Shown here piece by piece: positions 6,301-41,772 of a stretch of DNA of 64,000 nt. The stretch lies in contig CM026427.1 in assembly GCA_014871385.1 (NCBI GenBank), positions 12,214,430-12,278,429 on the forward strand, given 5' to 3'. How positions within the stretch are numbered: the stretch's first letter is position 1; the number at the start of each line of letters is the position of its first letter. Source of the DNA: Ceratodon purpureus. Its lineage: Eukaryota; Streptophyta; Bryopsida; Pseudoditrichales; Ditrichaceae. The notes beneath the pieces were generated by a model, which saw only the letters and a program-made list of their open reading frames with translations, did not search any database and was not told the origin of the DNA. Position numbers and translations under genes: made by a program.

Positions 6301-8500
6301 ATCAATCAGAGAAGGGTCGAGAAAAAGCGTCGTGGACCTAAAAGCCACATTCTATTTGGAATTGGTAGATTTGGGGGTTGGGAGTGTAGGTGCGGGGTAG
6401 ATGAGGGCGGGTTTAGGGGAGGGCGCGGGTATGGGTGGGAGGCGAAGCTGCGGGGGCAGCAGAACGGAAGGGAAGGGTGGGAGGCCACTTGCGGCGTGAA
6501 TCTATGGATCGGCACATCTACACATCGACGCAGGTAGCGAAAGATGTGAGGGTTTGGTGATTGGAAGCGAGGTTGGGGTTCGGGGGTGGCGGCCAGGTCG
6601 GTAGATTTTGCGGAGGTTGCTTCGAGTGTTGATTGTGCAGATCTTTCCAGGCCGGGAAACCCCCTGACATTGCAGTTGGCAACTCGAGCGAACTGGGAGT
6701 TGCATCGGGACACGGCATCCTCAATGCCCCTATTCTGCTCCTCAATGCGCGTCTCAAGGATTTGGCATGATTTCCCTCTACTTCCCTTTCACACTTTTCT
6801 CTATTCTTTTTATTTAAAAAAATCTAAATTTCATAACATTCACTAGTAGTTGGATAAACCTCCTTCATTCTTATGATGGCACATCGAGGGTATAATTGAC
6901 TTGTTCTCTTTGTACTATGTTGCTTTTAGGTGAAGTTGAGATGAGAATACACAGGTGAATTAATTGAAATCATAGGATAAAAATTCTATAATTTGTTCTC
7001 CCATTGTTCTTATCACTATTTTCTTTGGAAGCAGATACAACTTCTAATTGATGTTATGTTTCTTCAAATCAAAACGAAGAAAATAAGCTCCTGCTCTTTG
7101 AATGTATTAATTTGATCCAGACGTTGGAAATTTGTTGTGAGAAAAGCAAGAATTTATATTTGATTTGATTGAGATCAGTTGAATACATGTATATGTATAT
7201 GTATATTTTTTTTGAAGATACGTAACAATCAGTTGAATATTTGATGTGTTTTTCAGTGGGATATGTTGGGATGCTTCTTGCTAGGGTTTGGAGAACATGT
7301 TTCTGGATAAAGATTCTGAGATGGGAATTTGAGCAATGGCTTGCTTGACAAGGATTGTCGTGCGCACGTTGAAAAGGATTTGCTCTGCTCACATAATGTT
7401 CCAGAAAGCCCTACTTGAGGGATAGGAGACTGGGACGTGTTTGGAACCTGGTGGGAAGAGAGGAAGGAAGCTCGGTAAGCCCCAATCAGTGGAATATTCA
7501 GCCTAGAAGTGAGGAGCAAGGCAGGAAGGGTATTTTTCTTCTTATCAAGTGCCTGGAAAATCATGTGTATGAATGAATTTACTGTTACATTTAGCCTGCT
7601 TTTGTGTTTTTGGTATATCCATTCCATCCAGATTCCAGATATTTGCAGGGAACAGGACCTGAATAAATTAATACATGTACCTTTTCAGCTCCATTCTTGT
7701 GTGAATTGTACTGTACATGTGAGTACCATTGCTTTAGGATGTGACTCCACTTGGATATGGAGGCAATGGGAGTGAGTATAAGAAAGGCATTTCAGACTGT
7801 TGTTTTCAACAGTTGCTGTTTTCATGGGGGTGGTCTTGGGAAATTGGAGGTAAGTCATGGGTCCTTGCTGACTAGACTCAGCAAGGCCTTGAAAATATGA
7901 TACAAAATCATGTTCATATACGTGAGTAACAACTTAGCTGTGAAGAGTGAACTGGGACCACTCTCTATCACATGCATGTTATGGAATACTTTTTGTTACA
8001 AGTATTATGGTGTAAGCACCTATCCCCATACCCCCCCAAGGCGGACACCTCATATTCTTGTTCCACTGGAGATTTGATCACCCTATAATTACATGTAATG
8101 TATCCCATGCGTACATGTAGCAGGGTGTCCGGTTATAGGTTGGCCTATATTGGTCACTTCTAAAACTTGTAGCAATTATCGTAATTGCTTATAAATATCC
8201 TAAAAATGGGGAAACTTTGTTTTTTTTATTGATAATTACTGAAAAATAGTAAGCCACTCCTTCCACCTCTATAAGTATAGTAAATTCCTTTAGTGTACAA
8301 AAATAGGTGCTACTACCTTATGTCATAGCATTATTAGCAACCCTATTGTCCCTCATTTACTATTTCAAGTATCTTAGTAGTTGGGTGAGTCATCAGGGTC
8401 GCAAAAGACAAGAAAAAGTGAGCTTTTCCGCATTCTCACTAAATGAAGGGCAACACTTAATGAGTGAGGAACAACACGGTCTCTTGTAGTGTAGTGTCAA
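6301..8500. other. Intergenic DNA without recognisable genes
   Basis: Contains a G-rich patch at 6350-6500, a short atgtat repeat near 7185-7206 and otherwise AT-rich sequence. Frames longer than 60 codons show no family resemblance. Confidence 0.5.
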
Positions 8501-8860: not shown

Positions 8861-9908
8861 ATTCAACTTGGTTTTTAGGATTGACAACTTATCTTTCGTA
8901 TTGGCAACTTGATCTTTCGCATTGACAAAATGGTACTTGTATTACAAGACAATCCAATAACAGCCTCCTCCCAAAACCAACTCCCAAACTCCAACCCACA
9001 AACGAAAATCCCACTACGAACAAACTACCTCCAAGAAACAACCCTCCAATCCACCACCCAACAAAGACCCACAAGAAAACGCCCAATATAGGGCAAGAAA
9101 CCCTAAACTCAAGAACAAAATACACAACAAAAACCTCCATTCAACACAACACAACACAACACAATTCAACACAACACAGAAGACTAATCGAGAAGATCAC
9201 TTACAACGAAACGCCCCGAACAAACCCCAGATACTAGGCCGGAAACCATCCGATGCCGAAGCTGTAAGCCTGGATCAGAGCATCTGTTGGCGACGGAGCC
9301 GATCAAGGAAGGAATCGAGCAATGCTGCGGAACGAAAGCAAGCAATTGAGGCAAGCAAAGCATGCTTTCCATGCGTTCTTTACAATAGGAGCACATGAAA
9401 TTTCGGACGTGGGTTTTGTTGCTATGTGGGTTCTCCTCTTTATGGGATTTCTCTCTTCTTCACTAGGTGGAATCATTAAACTGGTACTCCCCCACTCACT
9501 CCCGAGGTTACCTCCCCCTTTCTAACTTCAGAGTGAAAATATCTTGAATTACTGCTCTGATTGCTTGAGAGCTCCGAAAGAGGTGGAGAGGCCTCACAAG
9601 AATAGGGTTCCAAATGGTGAGAGTCTGTCTCCGCCTTATGTACCCGGACACCCGGTTTAAGAGTTTGGTTTAGAGGCCTTAGGTGGGTACTGAGTTTGAG
9701 ATCACTAATTTGGGGGTGGTGTTATGGGGCAAGAGGAGATCATGTTGGAATTGGTGGATTAAGGAGTGGTAGGATGATGTGTTGTCACTTGTTGATTTGG
9801 TCTGTCATTCTAAATTAAGTATCAAATAGTTGACTTAGTCTGTCGTACATTGATTAAGTGACTGCCCTCGTTTGCTCAGTTAGGAATAATTGGATTCTAG
9901 TTGTAGTG

Positions 9909-13103: not shown

Positions 13104-13112
13104 GTACATGTG
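13104..13112 (+). repeat. 9-bp target-site duplication, left copy
   Basis: gtacatgtg abuts the left end of the inverted-repeat element and is repeated exactly at 14611-14619. Confidence 0.85.
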
Positions 13113-14610
13113 GGGTCTCTCTAAAAACCCCATCAAGCGGTGCACCTTGGGCAGCTCACCACGCGGGCAGCGAGTCTCGTGGATGAGCTTCTGTCCGTCA
13201 GCGACGAGTCCCCTCCGTCGTCACCCCATCGAATTCCTCCTTCCCGCCCATTTTCCTCCCCCTTTCCTCCACGCACAGCTCCTCCATCGCACTCCTCCGG
13301 GTGCTCGCCTTCGACGCCGCCTCCCGTTCCTCATCAGCTCCTCCATCGCTCTCCCTTGCTCCCGCCCTCGCAATTTTTGTGGTCCGTGTATCTTTTGTTC
13401 GAATCCTTAAGACTGATTTCCAAGCTGTCCGTGCCAAGCTGTCCGTGCTTACCCTCGACGCGACGTCGGGTAAAACCGCTCTCAAACCATCAAGCTGCTC
13501 ATCAAGCTTGGCACCGGCGCTCCAACGAGGCTTCGGAAGCAAGATCAACGCCATAAGTCCGCTTCAAGAACCCAGGCACACCCACTCTTTGACACGCCCG
13601 CGACAAAGCCACGAACTCATTCTGGATAACTTCACTCTCGGAATCCGACTCCGTCAACCCCTCCGAACCTGTCTCACCCCCTCCCTGATCTCTTCCATCA
13701 ACAGCACATCACGAATACTAGCACACGCTCCCATATCTAACTGCCCCAACTGCAACCCAGCTCCGCACCTCCTCACCACCTCCTCCGCTGGCCATCGTTG
13801 ATCACTAAAGTGAGGTCTTGAAGAAAACACCCAAGAGGCACCTTCGGATTCGGAACTGCCGATATTCAAATCACGTCATCTTCATAGCTTCGACCATTAT
13901 TAACCCGGTCACGAGAAACCAAGGCCTGAATTAAATTGATATTTTCATTCCTACTGTGAGGCGGATATGTCTGTGCTCCGAAGCCACGAAGCCAACAACA
14001 TTGTCTGCAGGCTGCTTCCTTCACCAGTTAGAGAACGACCGACATTCAAGTTCAGCATCAAGATGGTCTTAACTTGTGTTAATAAAAAATAGGCGTGGGA
14101 CAGGTGATAGTTGTTGAGAATGACATGGTAGGGTGCCAAGGGGAGCTTGGGCAGTACATGAGCGCTACGAATTCACATCCTTTCCGGCCAATCGAGCCAC
14201 CCCTGCAGATTCGAACTGATGGATCTCTCGTATGACGTTATGAAGTAGCGTTGTCTTGTTGTTAAATCCTTTGCATCAGCAATTTTGAGCAGTGTAAACA
14301 TGTTTAAATGCTTGTGCATCGCCTTGAAATACACACGGACCACAAAAATTGCGAGGGCGGGAGCAAGGGAGAGCGATGGAGGAGCTGATGAGGAACGGGA
14401 GGCGGCGTCGAAGGCGAGCACCCGGAGGAGTGCGATGGAGGAGCTGTGCGTGGAGGAGAGGGGGAGGAAAATGGGCGGGAAGGAGGAATTCGATGGGGTG
14501 ACGACGGAGGGGACTCGTCGCTGACGGACAGAAGCTCATCCACGAGACTCGCTGCCCGCGTGGTGAGCTGCCCAAGGTGCACCGCTTGATGGGGGTTTTT
14601 AGAGAGACCC
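13113..14610. mobile_element. Non-autonomous Mutator-like element (MULE) with long terminal inverted repeats
   Basis: The element is 1498 bp. Its terminal inverted repeats, 13113-13389 and 14333-14610, are about 277 bp long and almost identical; I noticed only one substitution and one 1-bp length difference. Both ends start gggtctctctaaaaacccc. Exact 9-bp flanking duplications and long terminal repeats are hallmarks of Mutator-like elements. The interior (13390-14332) encodes no recognisable transposase, so it would need one supplied in trans. The repeats are GC-rich and contain composition-driven open frames on both strands. The interior could include captured host sequence, but I cannot name a donor. 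It sits about 210 bp beyond the choline kinase stop codon and may lie in or near that gene's 3' untranslated region. Near-identity of the arms suggests a recent insertion. Confidence 0.85.
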
Positions 14611-14619
14611 GTACATGTG
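14611..14619 (+). repeat. 9-bp target-site duplication, right copy
   Basis: gtacatgtg follows the right terminal repeat directly, matching 13104-13112 at all nine positions. Confidence 0.85.
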
Positions 14620-19580: not shown

Positions 19581-22500
19581 TTAACTCTTCTTTATTTCTT
19601 TAGTCCTATCTACATAAGGGTACTCAGATGGAGCGAACCATAGGCCTGCGAGAAGTGAAACATGGCACAATAACAACGCTACTGATGATACCGGTGTCGA
19701 TGGGTACACATTCCAGCAGAGCTCTGTCCCGAAAAATATTGCCAATCTGCACTTCCGAGAAAACAGACAGACTCAGAATATCAATTGACAGCACACAAAC
19801 ACTTTCACTACGGTACACACATGTACTTGGAACAAAGGAAACCGAGCAAACACAATGAGCATGTGACTGCCCCGTTGCATCTCTGATCACCACTTGAGGT
19901 AAAGACAACTCACCGGACAGGGGTCGGGAATGTTGTTTTCCACAGTAGAAACGGTAAGCTGTAAAAGTACCTGCATGGACCATGTTTCCATGTTAATCAA
20001 GGGTGAACGTACGAACTGAGACACGACCAGTTCATGCAGCTGCATCAAAGGAGAAGAGTCTTTCAGATGTTGCTCACCAAGAATAGAATTGGTAATGTAA
20101 TGATCGAGCGAAAACAATGCCGATAAAGTTTCCAGTGAACACAACGGTCAGGATGTCTTAGGGCTCACTGTCAAAGAACACTTGACATCATGCATGATAG
20201 CAAGCACTTTCAATGTAGAATATGAAAATAGTTTGATAGTACATAACAACATAGTCTGAATAAGTCTGCGGGTTGGATACGGTTGGCTGAGAGAGATTGC
20301 ACAGATCTGAGAAACTTGTCCACAACATTCAAGTCTGACTTCTTAGGCTCTTCCCGCACATTTTGGGGCCCGCATGCTCGTAAGATACCTCCTTCGTGTC
20401 TGTCCAATGAAACGATATGTTAGAGGGTGAAAAATGTACACTCTCATCGGTCGATTAGCGTAGTAGGCATAGTAAAATTCACGCACAAAAATCACACTCG
20501 TACATGACAAAACCTTTACCTGCACCACTTGTACTGGGCGAACACAAACAGAAACCCCAGATGAAGTATCAACAGTGAGAGCGCAAACGGCTTGGAAATA
20601 AAAAAGTCCTCTGGAACAAACTTGAAGTTCACCGACCTGCCCCACACAGCTTCGATAACAATCAGAACATCATTCAATTACGTACACCAACTGTAAGAGA
20701 ACATATCTCGAATCAAATTCAGGACTGAAAACATCCACGGCACCTTGCCATTGCTTCATAACCCAAAGTGAGAGACAAAAGAACATCGACTTACCAGAAG
20801 TGGATAAACACCCGACCGAGATTGAAAGCTCTAGAGAAGTACTCCATGGGGTATGTAAGAAGGAAAGGCATGCCCACCAAGACCTGCAAACAGAGATCTC
20901 GAAATCAGTAAGCAGTCCGCCAACCCATATTGCAGAGCTGAACAAACCCATGCTTCGGGATCAAAAACATTAGACCTGACTGGAGTGTCTGTTTATAATC
21001 CAACCCAACTGTTTAACATGTGTCAAGGAATTATTGTGGATCTAACAAAGAATCCAACATGTCATTCTACAGTCTTCATAGACTATCCAGCGGCATGTAT
21101 TGAGCGAGCAGCACATAAACTTGAGGATGAAACTCACAAACCTGAAGTATTGCGGCACATCCAAGTGATGTCAGCACGCCCCAAACGGTCAGGCTCTGGA
21201 AACACAGTTCGTAGATGATTTTCAACACTTGTACAAAATCAGAATGGACGCATGGGATTCAACCAGTCAATTTCGTCAAAATGCATAAAGAAAAGTAACT
21301 GTCATAAACTGCTTACTTTCAAAAGGAGAAGCAATACAGGCGGCGCAAGCAGCAGTACATTCATCTTCACGGACACCGCAGCACTGCATTCATAGCATAG
21401 TCGCCAGTCAAACACCACACTCACACAATACTTCTCAAACACGATCAAAGGAAATTTGTGCGGGAAAATTCCTACATACATGGAGCACATATATGGGGCG
21501 TACATCCGACGAGCATCTCAAAGACAAGAACTAAAAACATTGAACAATGGGGGTGCAATCCCACCATCAAAGCCTGAACAAATGCCTCAAAGCGAAACTG
21601 CTATCCAAATTCCGAGTCCTACCTGAACACTGTCAGAGCCAGGTGCCAATGTTGCTGTTGCATAAGAGCAACAGATGCATGCATCAGAGTGGTGGCCACA
21701 CAGTCGTTGAACAGGCGGAGAACAAATATCGAATGAATCCGCTTTGAAAGGCATAGCAGAGAGAGTGCCCACCATGGTACCTGTCCTATGACAGCAATTG
21801 CACACACAACCCAAAGCTGTGAGTTTGTCAAGCTTACATCAACAGGCCACGCTTCAACAACAGCATTCACACATGGTCATCGCCTCGCCATATTCACAGA
21901 AAAGGAGAACGCGTACCGCTTGAGCTCTGATGTAGATCAAAAGGACCAGTCCAAGGTTTATCACATACAATACCCCAAAAAGGATCTGAAGACATAACAA
22001 ACGAGGTATCAAAACGCAGTCTAGGATCCACGATATCTAAACACTAAATGCTCATACATATCAAATGTCTTTAAGGCAAACACCAACGGTAAAATGAAAT
22101 GAATCCAGTGAACCTTCACATCGTTCCTAAGGCTGTATTCACTTTGTGGGAGGGAATACAAATGAGGACACCAACCTGCGCTGGAAATACAGCTCCGCCA
22201 GTAATATACTGGATGCCAGAATAGATGTACAAGAAACCTGCGGGGTACACTAACGGCCCCGTGTCGCCATGAATCTCAGCATAGTTTCTCTCACCAGCCA
22301 GAAATCCTGTCACCTGAGCGAGCAATGTCAGTCTAAAATAGACAAACCAACTGTACCACATGTTCTGCGCAGTGAAGGATATGAAAGTGAGCAAAGGTCA
22401 TCACACAATTCACACCTTAGAATGTGCATCTCTACTTCCCTCATCGTGATCATATATTACGTCATCGTCGTGGTCATGCATCTCCATAACCAGTGCCTAG

Positions 22501-23168
22501 TCTACATTTCTAACGGGGAGCTTTGACAAGCAAGAAAGTCTAAATTTGTAGTCACAGGTTTGGCACATTTTGACACATTTGCGACCGGGTTCTCGATGCA
22601 AGCAAACCTGTGACATGTATGCATCCCAATCGATCTTCGTGTCTGGCGATCCAAAGGCGCACCCACAGAAAAACCACCAGCACAAGTTCAGGTCCAACTC
22701 ACAAATCATAAATACAAATGCTGTTGCGAGATTAGGGTAACGCTGACAGCTGCACTTCGATCAACACCAACAAACATCGAATTCCCATCCGAGAACATGA
22801 TAGAATTCCAAACACCAAGCTGAAATCACACAATCACTCATACAAAAACTTTACCAATGCAGCATTTTCGCAACATCAACTCTTCACAAACGACTGACAG
22901 CAGCGCGAGTAAGGCTCCGATCACATATCAATCACTAAGAAGCTTAACAAACCGAAAAGAGTTAGGATTGAGCTTGCAATCAGACGAGCTTACATGGAAC
23001 GCGAGCGATGATAATTGCTGTGAGGACAGCGTCGAAGAGAAGTAACCCACACGCAGAGGAAATGAGACGCGATCGGCCGTCTCGAGGAGACACCATCGGC
23101 GACGGCGCCTTCGCCTTCGCCATCGCCTTCGTCACTGCCTCCCTCGACTTGGAGTCCGCCATAGCCAT
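19581..23168 (-). CDS. ALG3: ALG3: dolichyl-P-Man alpha-1,3-mannosyltransferase (NOT56 family)
   Basis: ER multi-pass membrane enzyme that adds the first mannose donated by dolichyl-phosphate-mannose to the Man5GlcNAc2-PP-dolichol precursor of N-glycans. I join 13 exons: 23168-22994, 22642-22608, 22313-22176, 21985-21917, 21780-21623, 21383-21317, 21195-21142, 20883-20795, 20636-20520, 20399-20281, 20156-20078, 19970-19914 and 19746-19581. The result is about 440 aa, close to the usual 430-460. Family blocks are intact: TKIDWDAYMSQV, ERNYAEIHGDTGPLVYPAG, NAV-type SVKMNVLLLAPPVLLLLL, NFIGIVFARSLHYQFYSWYF and ELCWNVYPSTP. Hydrophobic helices run through most of the protein. The start ATG at 23168 is the first in frame; upstream extension reaches only a TTG. 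It is divergently paired with the REX1-B-like gene 382 bp away. Part of its exon 5 and intron 5 is duplicated at 39891-40050. Confidence 0.95.
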
Positions 23169-23549
23169 CTCTGGAACCCAAATTCTCCAGAGGCGACGTT
23201 CAATGGGCAAGAGTCGCCAAACCCACGATCATGGTCTTCAGGCAGTTCTGTTCACGGGAAGAAAAAAGTTAACCCAAATCCAAAAGTAGAAAGAAGGAGG
23301 AAAAGGAGGGTTAGGCTTTGATCGGAGCGAGTTGAAGACTGGGTTGAAAGCTTTCATTCTGTTTCTCCAACCCTTGAGAGACGTGCAACAGACCCATCTT
23401 CTGTGGCACTTCAGTTTTGGAGACATTACCTTAGTGGGAAAAAATAATTGTTTGTTGAGACTTCTTCGATCAATTGGTGAGTGGTCTTTGTGGCTTTGTC
23501 AGTTCAATCGAGGTTTTGCTTGAGTGGGTGGGGTGTTGGCGAAGAAGAG
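23169..23549. promoter_or_regulatory. Putative bidirectional promoter, ALG3 / REX1-B-like
   Basis: Only 381 bp separates the start codons of two divergent genes, so both promoters and 5' leaders must share this interval. No convincing TATA box is visible. Confidence 0.55.
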
Positions 23550-25423
23550 ATGGAGAGCAATAACGAGGTCCGTGAGCAGGAGAGTGGAGAATTGCGGCAG
23601 CAGGAAGTAAGAGTTTGTGAGATTGGGCTTATGATGTTGCATTGAGCTTGGTTGTATTTTTGGTTCTGTGATATGGTAGTGGTGACGAAGTGATGAAGGA
23701 TTCGAGGCTGTCTTCTTACTGCCGGCCCGTGATGCACGTCCTTACAAAACTGCCATGTCATATGCCAAATCTCATAATCAAACACTTCTTACGGGGGTTA
23801 TTAACACGCCCAAAACGGCAGTAAGCAAGTTTTTGAGTTGGAAAGAAACGATAGAGCAGTTCCATGGAATTGGCTGAGCACTCGTGCAAACGATTGTGAG
23901 GATTGTGAGGAGTGAATGTCCTCAGGACCCTTCACGAACGGGATTTCATTGCTGTTGCCAGGTTTAGGGTTCAATGTAACTCAATGTGTATAATTATCCA
24001 ACAGTTTCAACCTCATTTAGCTCGGCACCTTGGACTTTCACATCATGGCAGTAGAAGCAAATTTCTGATTGATTTTCCTCGTCTAATAATGTGGAACTGG
24101 TTGATGCTTTGGGAGTTGTATTTCATTGACGGGTTATATTTCATTTAGTCTTACGTTGCGGCTTGTTGGATGCAGCTGTTGAGGGAGTTTCTGAAGGTGC
24201 AGGAGCATCGAGCTGGGCTTTACTCGACCCTTCACAGGTAGTGTTTTACGTGGAAGGGTATGTATGTGTTGCATAGCTGGTGGGAATCAATTTCTAGTGT
24301 TCGAGAATTATTGTGAATTGGTAACGAGGGTGTTCTTCAGCCGTATGCGGATGACGATGTCTGATTTGCATTTAGAAATTATCTAACCCTAGGATTGCAA
24401 TCTCATATTATCACGAACGTGTACAGGACATTGATAAAAAGATGTTGGAGGATGAGTATATGAGCGGTTTTTAGTTGGCTTTATATAACTTTTGTGTCTC
24501 TAACTTGTGTATTGGGAACAGTTTCTAAGAGTGAGTCTCGTGAATTTGCAGTGGATTTGCGGATTATCTGAAAACAGGGTCAGAAGTTTCGTTTCAACAG
24601 CTCTGTGGCAGGATCACCACGGCTTTTAATGACTGCTCAAGACAGGTCTGTTGATTATCCAATCAATATCTGATGCATTGATTCATTTGTTTGAAGAGAA
24701 TGGAGGTCCACACTAGTAGAAACTGTAATATCCTCGGAAGGGACACTCGAGTGATTTATGCTGTGGATGTGATTATATTTTCTCGCATTTTTTCCAGGTT
24801 GGAGTGAGGTCGTGTTATTCTCAACCACAGTTCTATACCTCAAGAAGACAATTGCTTACTTATTATATTCTTTGATTGTGATTAACCTCAGGTTATTGAG
24901 ATTCAAGCAGCTTTACGAGGACCAGACATTGACAGACAAGATCTTGCAGATATACTCAAAGATGTTCAGGCCCAAGAGAAACAGAATTTGAAGATGGTAA
25001 GTGTCTGCACAACAGCTTCTGTACCATGAGATCTGATCATCCAGAAGGTTATTTTTTTCTTCATTCTACAGTGCTACCTGAGTTTTGATAACACTTGATG
25101 GTCTCTTTGATATTCGAGTTTGGCTTTCCTGGTGAAAACTACTGAAACCATTTCCTTGTGACGCCCAGACTGCAACTCTACAAGTTCTGAGGAAAGCGGG
25201 CAGGCCATCAGACCGTGCACAAGAAATGGAGAAAAAGGGCCATCACCAGTGTTCTCATCTTCACGAGGAAGAGAGCAGTGCTTTGGAACTTGCGGAATCA
25301 GATGCTGAGTTTGATGCAGCCTACAAAGAAGCCACACAGGCCTTGCAAGAGTCGAGGACATCGATTCACGAATATATGGAGGAAGTTCGATATGAACTTG
25401 CATCTAGTGGTGCTGATGTTTAG
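23550..25423 (+). CDS. REX1-B-like (Required for Excision 1-B) protein
   Basis: About 190 aa in five exons: 23550-23606, 24176-24237, 24552-24645, 24892-24996 and 25169-25423. Phases all close and the first codon is ATG. Blocks LLREFLKVQEHRAGLYSTLH, LCGRITTAFNDCSRQVIEIQ, LKDVQAQEKQNLKMTATLQV and a His/Cys-containing HHQCSHLHEEE followed by an acidic helical C-terminus resemble the family defined by Chlamydomonas REX1-B, which is linked genetically to repair of UV damage. I name it from memory of that family, not from a search. The protein looks soluble and mostly helical, with no targeting signal. Expression may be coupled to ALG3 through the shared upstream interval. Exon 4 has an inverted duplicate at 41012-41155. 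Confidence 0.8.
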
Positions 25424-26244
25424 TGTTGTACAAGAGCTAGCCCCTCACTTGACAATTTTGTAGTCTTAATTAATCTAGATAAATCAATTTTCTTCTCAAC
25501 GTCATGTCCAATATTTCATTTTCTGAGTCTGTGTTTGTTTCTCGGAAATGCTGATTGGCAATATTTTTTGGCGAGAACTCTGCTAGAATGTACTGTATCA
25601 TCCGTACACTGTTGCTATAATGCCATAGTTTTTTTTTGTTGTTTTGTTTTGTTTTCGCTTGTTATTAAAAAAAAAAATTCAAAATGCAATTTGTAGCAAT
25701 TTTCAGAAGAGATACTAGATCTATTTTGAAAATTTTACGAAATAAAAGAACATCTATTCACATAATACATTTATTTATGAAGTAAGCTTTTACACCAAAT
25801 CAATCATATCATAAAAAACAACAAACATCTCTATGAGTTGAGACACTTGCAATACCCGCTTCTATATCATTCACAGCCGCTCCCACCTCGTGCAAAGCAC
25901 CAGTGCAAAACTTAACCATTTCCTATCAACGAGCAGCACGTTTCTAGAATCCAGGCACGCCACCAGGGCCCCAAAATCTACACCACCGAGAGACTCAACC
26001 AGATTCAATGCATCTCACAGACCCAAATTTAATACCCAGACACTCAAATCAAAACCAGGAACAACCCATCCGAAAAAAAAAAAAAAAAAACAAATGTTTA
26101 CAAAAAACTTCCACTGAACTTGAATTCACCAGAAAAACTCTCCGAACAAGACACCGAAGACAACAATCTAGCAACGCCCGCGATGGTCACACAATCCGTT
26201 AGATTCAACACAAGAACTGCATGTCTCCGAATTCCAATCATTAC
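25424..26244. other. Intergenic DNA between REX1-B-like and transporter genes
   Basis: 3' flank of the REX1-B-like gene, with T/A homopolymer runs near 25630-25680 and an A run at about 26072-26090. No coding region is seen. Confidence 0.5.
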
Positions 26245-31060: not shown

Positions 31061-31374
31061 CAATGCCCATGGGCCATCACCTCGCATTGATGGGGTGTGA
31101 TCCGGATTCCGCAATGGGTGATTTCTGGGGGCTTTGGATTATTGGGTGGGGGGGCTTTGGGTTGAGGGCTGAATGGGGCTGCAGATCCAATTTCAAATTT
31201 GAAATGGATGCTCACTCATGGGGACGCCGATCTGTGTTGTCTCCGATCTGGTATATAATTGCAATGCGATCATTGTGTTTCATCATCACAGCTTTTGAGT
31301 GCCCTGTTTCCTGCTTATCTGCAATCATTGTTTTCCTCTTTGAACTTGCTCTCTTGCTTTTTTTCTTGTCTGCG

Positions 31375-33926
31375 ATGGCTTCGGGTGGGCAGGTGACGCG
31401 GTTGGCATTGGCGAAGAAGAAGTTGGGGACTTTCCGGCAACGTGCTCTGGCTTTTTCGGATCGGGGAGAGCTGTCGCACACCGCCCTGGAGAGGGTGGTT
31501 CTCACCCGCAGTGCGAGCAAGAAGCGCGCTGCTGAGGACTCGCAAGAGTCCAGCAGCTGTGGCGGAGGTGATGGGGGTGGCGCGGTGGCTGCCGCAGGGG
31601 GCGGAGGCTGCGGGGCTACGGCAATCTCTGGAGGCTGCGGGGCTGGCGCGCTGGGTGGATCGGGGGGTGGTGACCCCGACTGCCAAGAGGTCATATGCCT
31701 CAGCGACAGTCAGGCCGAGCCAGCCCCCGCGGCGAAGAAGAAGCAGCGCAAGCACGACGCCCACCGCCGGTACCAGGACTCGTGGGCGTCCAAGTATCCT
31801 TGGGCTGAGCAGATGGTTTGCGAAGGGGACAATGTCGAGACAGTCCGCTGCTCGATCTGTACCAAAGTGAATGGGGCTCCAAAAATCCTCATCGCAAAGG
31901 GGGACAATTTGGCCAAACATCAGGGGTGGAAGAAAGCAAAATCTGACCTCCCTGATGGAACGAAGGAGGGGGAATGGCGGTGGGATCGCAATTCCAAGCA
32001 CTGCCGGGCTGAGCGGGTCTATGCCACGACCTCTGTGGACTCCATCTTGCGACTGGTTACCGAAGGTGCTTGCAACAGTTCCTCTGATCGCAAGAAACAC
32101 ATACAATTTGCTGTGCTTTTCCACCTCTTGGCAAATGGGAGGCCGATGGTTGAGTTTGAGGGCATGCACGAGCTTTTTCAGTTCGTTGGGGTTCCCAGGC
32201 TGCCTCGGAAGCACTGGTCCGCGAGCAGTGGGTGGCAGATGGCGGAGGCTTTGCACGAGGTAGTTCTGGGGGCCTCCTCGCAGGTTCTTTCTAACGCCAA
32301 ATTTTTTTCCCTCAGTTGCGATGAGGTTACTACTGTGGACAATCAAGTGTGGATCTCAATCCACGCTTATGTTGTGGAAAATTGGATCCGGGTTCCTGTT
32401 TTGCTGTCGCTTGAGCGTGTTGTTGAGGGCTGTGGAGCGGTGAACCTCACCCGCATTATCACTCAGGCCATGGCCAACGGTGGTCTCACCGAGTCACACA
32501 TTCGGGCCGGCCTCATGAGCGTGGGGGCAGATGGGGCCTCCACTTTCCAAGGGAGGAGGTCGGGAGTGATCACACAGCTGCAGCAATTGCATGCGCCGCA
32601 TGTAATTGGCATGCACTGTGTGGCCCACGGGACTAACCTCGCCGTTGGTTGTCTGTCTGACCTTCCCTCTGTCCAACGAATTGAGCACCTGTTGCAGTCT
32701 TTGCATTTTTTTTTCTCCAAGTCCCCCAAGCGTCACCTTGAGTTTACTAAATTGTCCGAGATCTTGCAGACCAAAGGGATGAAAATCCTGCGGCAAGTAA
32801 AGACTCGTTGGATTTCAATGCTCAGTCCTCTGAAACGTGTACTATCTGAGTACCGCACCTTGGTTGTGAAGATGTACTCTGATATGCATGCTGCGGTGCT
32901 TGTGCCCTCGGCCAAGATCAATTTTGAGGCGCTGGTTGACATCGAAAACCTCCTGAGTCTTGCATGTTTTGTTCCACTCTTGGAGTCAGTCAAGAACCTC
33001 ATTGTCTTTGCTCAAAGTCCGAATGTGTATGTCTGTGACTTTACAAGGGCCTTGCAGCTTTGCTGCGATGACATTGACAGTTTGTACCGAGCTGAGGAAA
33101 CTGCATTTAAATCAGATGTATTTTCTCATTTCACCTCAATCTGTGACATGACGCATGATAGCATCAAGTTGAGATGGCAACCAGACATGAACGGAGGTGA
33201 TGACCTATTAGTGTTTGAGGGCCACTTGCAAACTCCTGCTGGAGCCCACCTGAATGCCACTGTCCGGGCTGATGGAGGTCGGTCCAGTGTTTTCGTGACC
33301 CCTTCCATGTGGGAGCTTGTGAAGGCCAGCGTGAAACGGGATGTGAAATGTAAGTGGCCCCTTCAGAATCTCCAGTAGCTTGTCACCGCAACTTAATGCT
33401 ACCATGCGTCATGATCCTTGTTTGTGTTGCTTTGGGCTTCTTGTCTATTTTCCATTTGTTGTGATACACTTTGTGTTGCTAATGTGTGTGCTGTGTGGCC
33501 TGTCTAGTGGCTGCGGATCTGATTATCAGTGAGCTCCATGACCGATTTCCGGCCAACCATGTGTTGAATGCTTTGAGCATTGTGTACCCTCATTTCTGGC
33601 TGCCTGAGAATGAGCCGCATCTGCACTTGCAGCAGCATATTTCTGTGATTAAATCCACCTTTTGTGACCCTAAACAGTGCTACATGGGGGAGGCCTCTTT
33701 GTCTGCCAATGGTCCACTGTCCGCATCTGCACTTGATGCACAGCTGGGGCTTTTTAAGCTCGCCATGGAAAGCAATAGCCCCGCGGCACTGGCCCCCTTT
33801 GACATGCACCTCAATCCGCTAACAAAGTTGTGGCGAAAGCTCAGTCAGTCCACCATTCTTACCAAGTCGAGTTTTCCCGAGTTTTTCAAGCTGGCTCACG
33901 TAGCCATGGTCATGGTGATGTTCTAA
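31375..33926 (+). CDS. hAT-superfamily transposase-derived protein, C-terminally truncated
   Basis: Two exons, 31375-33349 and 33508-33926, give about 797 aa. An in-frame ATG at 31063 is possible, but its extension is low complexity. The N-terminus has a Gly/Ala-rich stretch, then a CSIC-containing BED/TTF-like zinc-finger region (WASKYPWAEQMV, GDNLAKHQGWKKA). The RNase-H-like core shows CDEVTTVDNQVWISIHAY (first Asp), GADGASTFQGRRSGVITQLQ (second Asp) and MHCVAHGTNLAVG. Exon 2 reaches FPEFFKLAHVAMVMV, where family members normally continue into the segment with the catalytic Glu and the dimerisation region. Here it stops after MF. That last segment is absent, so the protein is unlikely to transpose. 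It may be a decayed copy or a domesticated DNA-binding protein. The long open frame and clean intron argue for some constraint. Terminal inverted repeats were not found. A poly(A) signal AATAAA is at 34167-34172. Confidence 0.8.
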
Positions 33927-38559: not shown

Positions 38560-39890
38560 GCTTCGGTTGCTGTTGCGAATCCGGTTCTCTCCCTGGTTGT
38601 GCCTGCTGTCACTTCATCAAAACGTCGATTGTACAGCAGTGAAGAGAATGCACCGAGTTCGATGGATTGGAACGAAGTAGGCTTCGTTTTCGATGTCGGT
38701 GCCAGGGCACAAGTAATTTGATGGTCAGGGACTGTGAATAATTGCAATTGAATTTATTTAGTAACAAGTACACGATAAGTGTAAAGCTTGGGGCGAATTT
38801 TGGTTATGGACGTAGGTATCTTTTGGTGGAATTTCTATCAAAAGATGAAGCCCCAGCGACTCGGTACTAAGTGACTTACATCACACGGATCCTCGATATC
38901 TGATATTCTTTAGATGTGATCAGATTCTTTTGGGAAGAGATACTAGACGTCAAGTCACAGAATTTTCACAACTAGACTAGTAGTGAAGAAGCTCTGTAAT
39001 TAGAAGATGCTCATTCATGGAGTATTCTCGTGTGGAAAGCGACGCCGTCCTGCGTTGCAATGAGTTCTGCTTGCAATAAAGACGTTTCAACGCGCATTTG
39101 CACCGTCTTACGGCGTTTGAGTATATCTCCGTTTTACAATCGTGGCACGCACTTCGGAGACGGAGCCTATCCTGCAAATGCTCCATCACAATCCACGACC
39201 ATGCGTTACCATCTGTAAAATCAACACAATTAGGCTACAGTCTCCACTGCGACCCCACAAGCAGTACTCCGAACCTTCTCCATATTACGGCAGAAAGATC
39301 TTCAGTCTGCTGGTAGCAATACCATGCAATCATTGTTGGTTATTATAAAACATGCCGCGATTCTGATTGTTATAATCCACATACTTAGATAATCCAAGTT
39401 CAATAATTGAGATTTACACATTGTAATAGTTATGATATCAAAGTATTTATTCAATTGTTACCAGCTGCAAATACCTTCAAATGGTGAGTCAGTACGTAGC
39501 AAACATTTGCTAGAACGCAAGTCATCAGCTGTTTAAGATCTGCTATGTTCTGTTGTGTCAATGTCAAATCGGACTTGAGATCCGTTACCTACGTCTGAGC
39601 ACCTGTGATCCCGGGTGTCATATACACATCATTTACGTTCATATTAGTCTGCAAAATTATTGTATCATCCAGCTTCCATTTTCAGCATCAGAAAATTAGG
39701 AGAGATTGGACATCAACTTGGTCCTGCGGACTCATAGAGAACGTTGCGGAAAGACCTTGTCAATCAGTGAGCAGCCCAAGGAATGAGTTGGTCCTAACCT
39801 GTCCTACAATCAAAATTGTTCAAGCTGCTTGAATGCAGGCCTAGCTTAGAATTTGAGTGAGTGTTACCTCCTGGAATTGTTTGATAATGT
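38560..39890. other. Intergenic DNA
   Basis: 3' flank of the glyoxal-oxidase-like gene followed by sequence without recognisable genes. Confidence 0.5.
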
Positions 39891-40050
39891 TGAACAGTGG
39901 GGGTGCAACCCCACCATCAAACTCTGAAGAAACGCCTCAAAGCGCAACTGCAATCTGCATTCAAATTCCTACCTGAACACTGACGTCAGAGCCAGGTGCC
40001 AATGCTGCTGTTACATTAGAGCCACAAATACATGCATGCATCAGAGTGGT
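39891..40050 (-). pseudogene. ALG3 fragment (part of exon 5 plus intron 5)
   Basis: Closely matches 21541-21693, that is the 3' part of ALG3 exon 5, its GT donor and about 80 bp of intron 5, in the same orientation as the functional gene. Because intron sequence is retained, the copy was made from DNA and not from spliced mRNA. In the exon portion a CAA codon has become TAA, so the frame is broken, and a 3-bp insertion is present. Matching sequence stops abruptly at both ends. Confidence 0.9.
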
Positions 40051-40228
40051 CATGCCTTGGTTTGAGATTTATTACTATGATTACTTGTACAGCAAGAAAT
40101 TAGAAGTTGAACGAGTGGGAAAATGTTCGAAGTTAATGTAAAAATAGTTATTTAATGTAAAATTAGCTGATTACTTGCAAAAAAAGTAATCGACTCCAGA
40201 ATTAGCTCCCTTTTACTTTTGATTTTTG

Positions 40229-40236
40229 TATATAAG
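40229..40236 (+). promoter_or_regulatory. TATA box candidate for the TFIIS-N-like ORF
   Basis: TATATAAG lies 153 bp before the ATG at 40389, in A/T-rich surroundings. Spacing fits a short leader. Confidence 0.45.
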
Positions 40237-40388
40237 CGCCACTCTCATTTACTATATTGATTTCATTATGACATTGTTGCTTTAGTCTTCATCTCTGTGC
40301 CTCCATATTATCTACCTTGGTCCATTCTCTTCGTTCTCCATTGTCTACCTTTGTCCATTCTTTTCCGTTATTCACAGGTTCAACTCTA

Positions 40389-40901
40389 ATGGAGATTTAC
40401 GAGTTGCAACTTGAGGATGGAGAGGTTTTGGAGAAGAAGGACGTCCGAACAACTCTCGACAAATTGCAAGCATCTCCACATGGAGGTACAGCAACAGAGT
40501 ACATGGAGCTCTTGGTGTACACTGTGAAGATGAGCAATATTGTCAATCAGTACATGGTGCTCAAGGCCCTCAATGAGACAAAGCACATGTCTCTGCTCAA
40601 GGGCATTGCCAAGCCAAAAAATCTGCAAATTCTTTCATTGGTATTGATCTTACATCAAAACTCCTATCAAATGACTCCCGTCATCCGCAACACTTTGCGT
40701 CTACTTCAACGTTTGGACAAGTTTAAAGTAATTAAAGGGACTGAACTTGCTTGCACTCACAAGCTTTGTACACACAAGTTCTTAAAAATCCTCTTCGAAT
40801 TGACCAAGCACCCGGATCAGGAAGTCCGGACTCTTGCTTCATTGTTCCAAAAGCTACGATTTTCCATGCCAAATGGAAAATGCATCAATCAGACATGGTA
40901 G
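40389..40901 (+). CDS. Small intronless protein with TFIIS-N (LW)-like helical domain
   Basis: 170 aa starting at the ATG at 40389. The segment LRLLQRLDKFKVIKGTELAC with LKILFELTKHPDQEVRTLAS resembles the C-terminal helices of the TFIIS N-terminal/LW domain, a fold that docks on transcription elongation factors. The whole length appears helical and it lacks membrane segments. It stops where a longer transcription protein would usually continue, and a cag acceptor-like site precedes the ATG, so it may be one exon of a captured gene instead of a complete gene. It lies between broken copies of ALG3 and REX1-B-like pieces. A TATA-like box upstream favours possible expression. Function is not known. 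Confidence 0.5.
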   Translation: MEIYELQLEDGEVLEKKDVRTTLDKLQASPHGGTATEYMELLVYTVKMSNIVNQYMVLKALNETKHMSLLKGIAKPKNLQILSLVLILHQNSYQMTPVIRNTLRLLQRLDKFKVIKGTELACTHKLCTHKFLKILFELTKHPDQEVRTLASLFQKLRFSMPNGKCINQTW

Positions 40902-41011
40902 AGCAAAGTACATGCATTAAAAAAATGTTTATAAATAATTTGATGTGGTATACTTGCAAATACATTTTGACAAAACTCTATTAGCACTGTAGAATGAGAA
41001 ATAACTCAAAC

Positions 41012-41155
41012 CTTCTGGGTACAAAAGATGTTGGTGCAGACACAGTTTACCATCTTCAAATACTGTCTCTCTTGGGCCTGAACATCTTTGAGTATATCTG
41101 CAAGATCTTGTTTGTCAATATCTGGTCCTCGTGAAGCTGCTGGAATGTCAATATA
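41012..41155 (-). pseudogene. REX1-B-like fragment (exon 4 plus start of intron 4), inverted
   Basis: The minus strand closely matches the plus-strand region from about 24895 to 25040, covering exon 4 of the REX1-B-like gene, its GT donor and the first part of the intron. The exon copy remains open (RGPDIDKQDLADILKDVQAQ) with a few substitutions. Neighbouring exons are absent, so it cannot encode the protein. Orientation is opposite to that of the source gene. Confidence 0.9.
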
Positions 41156-41772
41156 AACCCGAGTTTAATGACAATTGAAGCATTGTATCAAGGATTTTGA
41201 AGGAATTTGCGTCCATGGTAATCACTAGGTCGGTCTAGCAGTATTGATGGTACATAGGACATACTGCGGGTTTGACATTTCGCAATTGCTCGGATTGCAA
41301 ATAAATTCGTATGCATCAAGTCATACCCTGGCGCTAAATGTAACAGAGTCTTTGCAGAGTCCATTGATGCAATTCACTGTGATTGTATAACGTGAGCGTA
41401 ACTAATGTGATCTTGCAAGTTTCATCAAATGTGTCCAATTTATGAGTGTTAACGATATGAAAAGATTCTATGACAATCACAAAAGCTATCGGTGGTCACA
41501 AGCTTGAACCGAGAGTCGTGGATTGCAAACCTCGGAGGAAACTACAATACCTGTCATGTCCAGAACGAACTCAATCACCACAACCAGTTAGACACAAAGA
41601 TTGCATGTTCTTTATGTTCCATTTGTTTTGGTAAGAGAGTCTAGATATATATGGTAGCCCCCAATCCTGCTTTTCCTAAACTTCGGTGAATTTAGTTTGC
41701 AGATGATAACTATCATAGCTAGACCTGGATTTCTTCTCCCCACACTTCACGCTCTATGGAGGGGTAAAGCAG
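41156..41772. other. Intergenic DNA and PRMT10 upstream region
   Basis: No coding region is recognised; should include the promoter and leader of PRMT10. Confidence 0.5.

Follow-up and report, generated by a model that had tools for sequence, protein, structure and literature searches.

A mosaic of gene fragments in the moss Ceratodon purpureus probably belongs to a dispersed intron-less gene family that carries broken ALG3 pieces

How did pieces of two neighbouring genes, ALG3 and REX1-B, come to lie within 1.3 kb of each other, in a new relative orientation, in the genome of Ceratodon purpureus? We examined this in a stretch of 64,000 nucleotides from contig CM026427.1 (assembly GCA_014871385.1, positions 12,214,430 to 12,278,429 of the forward strand), which is referred to as the window; positions without a locus label (L) are those of the window. 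The original prediction, made from the letters alone, placed at 39891-41155 a fragment of ALG3 exon 5/intron 5, a small TFIIS-N-like open reading frame (ORF) with a TATA box, and an inverted copy of REX1-B exon 4, and ascribed them to capture by a transposon (Helitron or Pack-MULE type) or to repair filler DNA. The present study confirmed the mosaic and supported its interpretation in part. We consider that the patch is probably one copy of a dispersed family of selected intron-less genes that carry broken pieces of ALG3, and that the REX1-B scrap is a later local addition.

Both copies are real. The local alignment scores were 193 for ALG3 and 238 for REX1-B, far above the best of 40 dinucleotide shuffles (35). 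The ALG3-derived piece has the orientation of its source and aligns over 161 columns, which include exon 5 (71 aligned bp) and intron 5 (83 aligned bp). The REX1-B-derived piece is reversed and aligns over 230 columns, which include the complete exon 4 (105 bp) and parts of intron 3 (25 aligned bp) and intron 4 (74 aligned bp). Copying at the DNA level, with introns, at single-exon size, and in a new relative orientation, had been described correctly, and the limits given above were nearly right, except that the segment reaches 41183. Differences from the genes were present at 5 of 71 exon and 14 of 83 intron sites in the ALG3 piece, and at 7 of 105 exon sites and 6 of 25 and 7 of 74 sites in introns 3 and 4 in the REX1-B piece. 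The new in-frame stop reported in the ALG3 fragment exists: CAA is replaced by TAA in the original frame, preceded by a 4-base insertion (by eye). The REX1-B protein spliced from the window was identical to KC19_6G155200 across 190 residues; we take KC19 and M758 to be strains R40 and GG1, respectively.

A translated search of the genome with the ORF yielded 21 places, and 13 of these, the window included, are close copies distributed over four contigs (four on C7, five on C12, three on C1, and one on C10). The other eight are remote (28-38% identity) or very short, one matching at 72% over 32 residues, and no intron-bearing parent, such as a retrogene would have, was identified among them. 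The reading frame is intact in 11 of the 13 close copies and intron-less in all 11; stops marked inside several intact copies by the translated search are those copies' own ends. As for the two non-intact copies, L030 is broken by 744 bases and L031 retains the last half only. Two inverted repeats of approximately 740 bases in L030 (1812-2551 and 5160-5899) are 99.7% alike, and one of them splits the ORF copy; the repeat is also found at L023:3871-4606 and L037:2157-2882. A protein search with the 170-amino-acid ORF retrieved four Ceratodon proteins (73-93% identity), and a search with their alignment added one metagenome protein (P0005, 48% identity); this search depends on shared 5-residue words, and remoter relatives may escape it. 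Since a single residue (by eye) separates L022 from P0001, which is labelled M758, the L022 copy seems, from its sequence, to be retained in the second strain. Surface-level literature searches found no description of the family. We also noted an open frame of 358 amino acids at and around L038:4288-4581 (C10:14.2 Mb). This frame is remotely paralogous to the ORF, has a charged tail that is coiled-coil-like by eye, and may point to the origin of the family.

Pairwise ratios of nonsynonymous to synonymous change (dN/dS) among the 11 intact copies were 0.10-0.35 in 53 of 55 pairs; the two outlying pairs have one synonymous change each (dN/dS 0.78 and 0). Fisher tests on seven chosen pairs gave p values from 0.023 to 5e-19. 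In a tree of the intact copies, the window groups with L022 and L023 (support 100/100), and the ratio of its ORF was 0.29 against L023 (p 0.009) and 0.35 against L022 (p 0.007). Moreover, the window and L023 are 96% alike within the frame and 81% alike in the longest upstream stretch. Because dN/dS is low and similarity falls outside the frame, we concluded that purifying selection maintains the ORF and that the ALG3 pieces around it decay. The predicted TATA box is present in a stretch common to other copies: in an alignment of seven copies, five rows have GTATATAA, L028 has GTAGATAA, and L025 has GTATGTAA (by eye).

ALG3 pieces adjoin 12 of the 13 ORF copies, and their order is the same in all 12: in the orientation of the ORF, ALG3 21.2-22.9 kb, the ORF, and ALG3 19.7-20.2 kb. 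No ALG3 piece was found in L023, where the repeat also present in L030 and L037 lies upstream. The 19.7-20.2 kb piece follows the ORF in nine of the 13 copies, with the same junction at 19703-19707 in the last exon of ALG3. Since the upstream subsets differ between copies (21210-21862, 21975-22142, 22244-22741, and 22698-22944), the unit in its ancestral form probably contained much of ALG3, introns included. L044 and L046 have ALG3 pieces and bits of unit flank without the ORF; in L044, the ORF seems to have been lost by internal deletion. Short tandem repeats of the type ACTTGTAAATACATTTGACAAGATAC were observed between the ORF stop and the ALG3 3' piece at L025:2050-2345 and in the 3' flanks of other ORF copies (by eye).

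The differences within these pieces agree with common descent of the units. The exon 5 pieces of the window and L022 differ from each other at 8 of 114 sites and from the gene at 13 (window) and 18 (L022) of 110. All four units with an exon 5 piece (window, L022, L024, and L026) agree against the gene, the sole reference in this comparison, in 5 of 98 columns. In addition, 3-4 extra bases are present in each of the four at one exon site (by eye). Among the 3' ALG3 pieces of the copies on C12 and C1, the difference was 0.18-0.29 from piece to piece and 0.16-0.24 from the gene. Since the mutual difference is similar to that from the gene, ALG3 and the ORF were joined at or before the split of the C12 and C1 groups. 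The presence of ALG3 beside 12 of 13 copies, the constant order, the shared differences, and the same junction in nine copies show that the window copy inherited its ALG3 piece from the family unit and did not capture it at this site. A decayed ancient duplication, which the original prediction had set against its own interpretation, was thus found in part, on the ALG3 side.

In contrast, the REX1-B piece is absent from the other 12 ORF copies. A genome search with 22500-25900 yielded 12 places, and exon 4 was present in two only, the gene and the window copy. The piece occupies the position that an A+T-rich repeat flank holds in other copies, and, at the joint, the family sequence TTTGACAA and the REX1-B sequence CAAAACTC overlap by approximately 3 bases (by eye). 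Among the seven exon changes, five are at codon positions 1 or 2 and six alter the residue (by eye); to judge from the sequence, this spread is as expected for an unconstrained copy. Since the scrap was found only in the window copy, we regard it as a later local addition. The simplest reading is a break filled from a nearby template: in the window copy alone, a break in the ORF 3' flank would have been filled with inverted REX1-B exon 4 from approximately 16 kb away. The piece resembles templated insertions at repaired breaks in being short, inverted, and local, and in the few bases shared at one joint. However, this process accounts for the REX1-B piece only, which measures approximately 210 bp and, at 20% divergence, is old. 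The piece may instead stem from an older local rearrangement. Repair filler DNA, as originally proposed, therefore fits the REX1-B piece, which is found nowhere else, but not the ALG3 piece, which was inherited with the unit.

The ALG3 pieces are arranged as a circular permutation of the gene, and the ORF occupies the joint. We propose that the unit arose once, beside or inside an ALG3 duplicate, and then multiplied via tandem and segmental duplication; a tandem array or a circular intermediate would give the permuted order. Same-strand pairs of units are present on C12 (L024 and L028), and the copies L027 and L030, on C1 and C10, have kilobases of common flank that include a kinase-like frame (by eye). 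Homology between copies breaks off at differing positions without common termini. These arrays, long common flanks, and variable end points suggest that segmental and tandem duplication multiplied the family copies. The patch itself does not resemble a transposon. The window copy may have arisen in the same way as the others, but its sequence in common with its two nearest relatives is short: approximately 1 kb is shared with L022, and stretches of 0.6 kb and 0.2 kb are shared with L023. The intact selected copies, tandem pairs, common flanks, and decayed neighbours are alike in other duplication-spread gene families with pseudogene debris. The difference is that the debris here, which flanks an intron-less ORF on either side, consists of permuted fragments of ALG3, a single unrelated gene.

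Capture of ALG3 by a transposon does operate in this genome, at other loci. A Pack-type element with terminal inverted repeats (TIR) is present at L041:3904-5406 (C2:4.47 Mb) and L042:3215-4716 (C12:10.24 Mb). Its ends are perfect inverted repeats of 26 bases, or 24 if the adjoining TA is the duplicated target; TA duplications are characteristic of Mariner elements, according to PMC8903248. The element holds a piece of ALG3 from 22261, to 22984 in L041 and to 22515 in L042. The 24-base end occurs nine times in the genome (reversed control, 0), four times in these two elements, and none of the nine is within 1 Mb of a close ORF copy. The TIR is absent from the ORF units. Two weak matches to it, with 7 edits each, were all that the window contained (8295-8320 and 9081-9105); shuffled ends averaged 0.25 matches. 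Compared with Pack-TYPE DNA transposons as described in that source, the ORF units are alike in carrying genomic gene pieces, introns included, at a new site and differ in having neither TIRs nor common ends, whereas both are present at L041 and L042.

Could one transposon, Helitron or Pack type, nevertheless have taken both gene pieces and inserted them as a single element? The pieces retain introns and are of single-exon size, the Pack-type element on C2 and C12 carries ALG3, and maize Helitrons often pick up nearby gene pieces (PMC4683698), which resembles the joining of nearby gene pieces in one segment here. However, the ALG3 piece is common to copies on other chromosomes and the REX1-B piece is not. 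An exact inverted 14-mer flanked the ORF in one of eight stretches tested (L022) and in none of the other seven, the window included; L028, L030, L031, and the second L024 ORF were excluded from this test, and diverged ends would escape it. A 15-nt inverted pair at 39467/41196 was one of 53 such pairs in the region and had no adjoining duplication by eye. Helitrons are defined by 5' TC, 3' CTRR with a hairpin, and insertion between A and T (PMC4683698); the ORF copies differ from them in lacking common ends (no scan for Helitron end motifs or the hairpin was made), and the units lack the Pack-type TIR. A literature search for Ceratodon and Helitron returned no match. The genome-wide search yielded the 13 ORF copies. 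We consider it very unlikely that a single transposon captured both pieces here. A transposon may instead have first assembled and moved the unit, its ends having since decayed and later copies being duplications. The copies on four contigs, the permuted ALG3 order, and the ALG3 capture elsewhere in the genome are consistent with this origin, whereas the lack of common ends, the long common flanks, and the tandem arrays favour duplication; it appears rather unlikely.

A further possibility is a single old duplication of the ALG3/REX1-B locus in which the ORF lay next to REX1-B; after later inversion and deletion, it would have left both pieces. The two source genes are adjacent, and an inverted scrap of the ALG3 3' end lies directly 3' of REX1-B in the orientation that this model requires. 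When the sequence beyond this scrap was compared with 11 ORF 3' flank segments, five scored above the shuffle maximum (L027, 34 vs 27; L029, 33 vs 23; L031, 25 vs 21; window, 20 vs 17; and L028, 23 vs 22), one tied, and five scored below. Since L027 and L029 are nearly identical to each other and the compared stretch is rich in A+T, this outcome favours neither side. The absence of REX1-B from every other copy argues against the model. Moreover, the ALG3-like bases beside the scrap seem to extend beyond 19703 (GATGATAC, by eye), a sign that their source was ALG3 itself. We regard such a duplication as quite improbable. The idea that the segment is mainly a source of antisense RNA against REX1-B or ALG3, an outcome raised in the original prediction, draws on REX1-B exon 4, which follows the ORF in antisense orientation and includes 44 identical bases. 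However, AATAAA-like signals (40916-40934) precede the REX1-B piece, which shows no sign of constraint given its residue-altering changes and its restriction to the window copy, while the ALG3 piece has only 20 identical bases and is located upstream of the TATA box. We therefore find this role very improbable.

What the selected ORF encodes may be approached through its predicted fold, which is closest to the TFIIS N-terminal domain (TND) of PNUTS by a narrow margin. In the VIA-align ranking, TND chains were first to third in both models, with unrelated helical folds within approximately 1 Z. Foldseek returned 761 rows at E up to 10 and none at 0.001, and its TND rows had E of 0.2-0.7. Pfam gave no accepted match for the ORF, its four relatives, P0005, two longer frames, or the remote paralogue in L038, with nothing near the curated cut-off, and a sequence search of solved structures gave chance-level rows only. 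The ORF protein would thus be TFIIS-N-like, as originally labelled, by its predicted fold and not by sequence match. It differs from the HEAT/TND domains of PNUTS (PPP1R10) and IWS1 in that the domain makes up nearly the entire 170-amino-acid protein, lacks a Pfam match, and has a small lead over armadillo folds. By analogy with TND domains, the protein would act in the nucleus, binding short motifs of transcription elongation factors; this step is the least certain. On a bolder and doubtful reading, the family would be a moss lineage-specific, stand-alone TND family of free elongation-factor binders, multiplied via a permuted ALG3-ORF unit, possibly as circular DNA, with the window copy gaining an antisense 3' end from a neighbouring gene.

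The features discussed are summarized in Table 1. With the scrap at 25512-25591, the ALG3/REX1-B gene pair is bounded by an inverted repeat. Elsewhere in the window, an open frame of 771 amino acids (31063-33378) has no Pfam match and is transposase-like by eye, and an inverted repeat with arms approximately 0.9 kb apart (13106-13395 and 14327-14618) is 98% identical over 292 columns. Scans of the window for tRNA and Rfam families and a search of a plasmid collection gave no match.

Table 1. Positions of the mosaic segment and its source regions in the window
Feature	Position	Strand	Evidence
Decayed piece of ALG3 exon 5/intron 5	39890..40050	- (sense on minus strand)	84% identity to 21540-21693; differences from gene common to L022, L024, L026
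TATA-like box of ORF, TATATAA	40229..40235	+	Aligned counterpart in compared copies
Intron-less ORF, 170 amino acids, HEAT/TND-like predicted fold	40389..40901	+	13 close genome copies, 11 intact; dN/dS <1; fold comparison
A+T-rich 3' flank of the family, remnant up to REX1-B joint	40902..40972	+	ACTTG.AAATACATTT.GACAA common to other copies (by eye)
Inverted REX1-B exon 4 with flanking intron, private to window copy	40971..41183	-	80% identity to 25087-24867
Working ALG3 gene, matching part	21540..21693	-	Pairwise alignment
Working REX1-B gene, matching part (exon 4, 24892-24996)	24867..25087	+	Pairwise alignment
ALG3 3' part found after ORF in 9 of 13 copies, absent from window copy; sharp start at 19703-19707	19703..20181	-	
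Inverted scrap of ALG3 3' end directly downstream of REX1-B	25512..25591	-	83% identity to 19708-19784

Inherited pieces of ALG3 mark how an intron-less gene family arose and spread in a moss genome. In this genome, ALG3 was copied by two routes, the duplication of a gene unit and a Pack-type transposon. What appeared to be a mosaic of gene scraps is then one member of a selected protein family with a possible bearing on transcription elongation.
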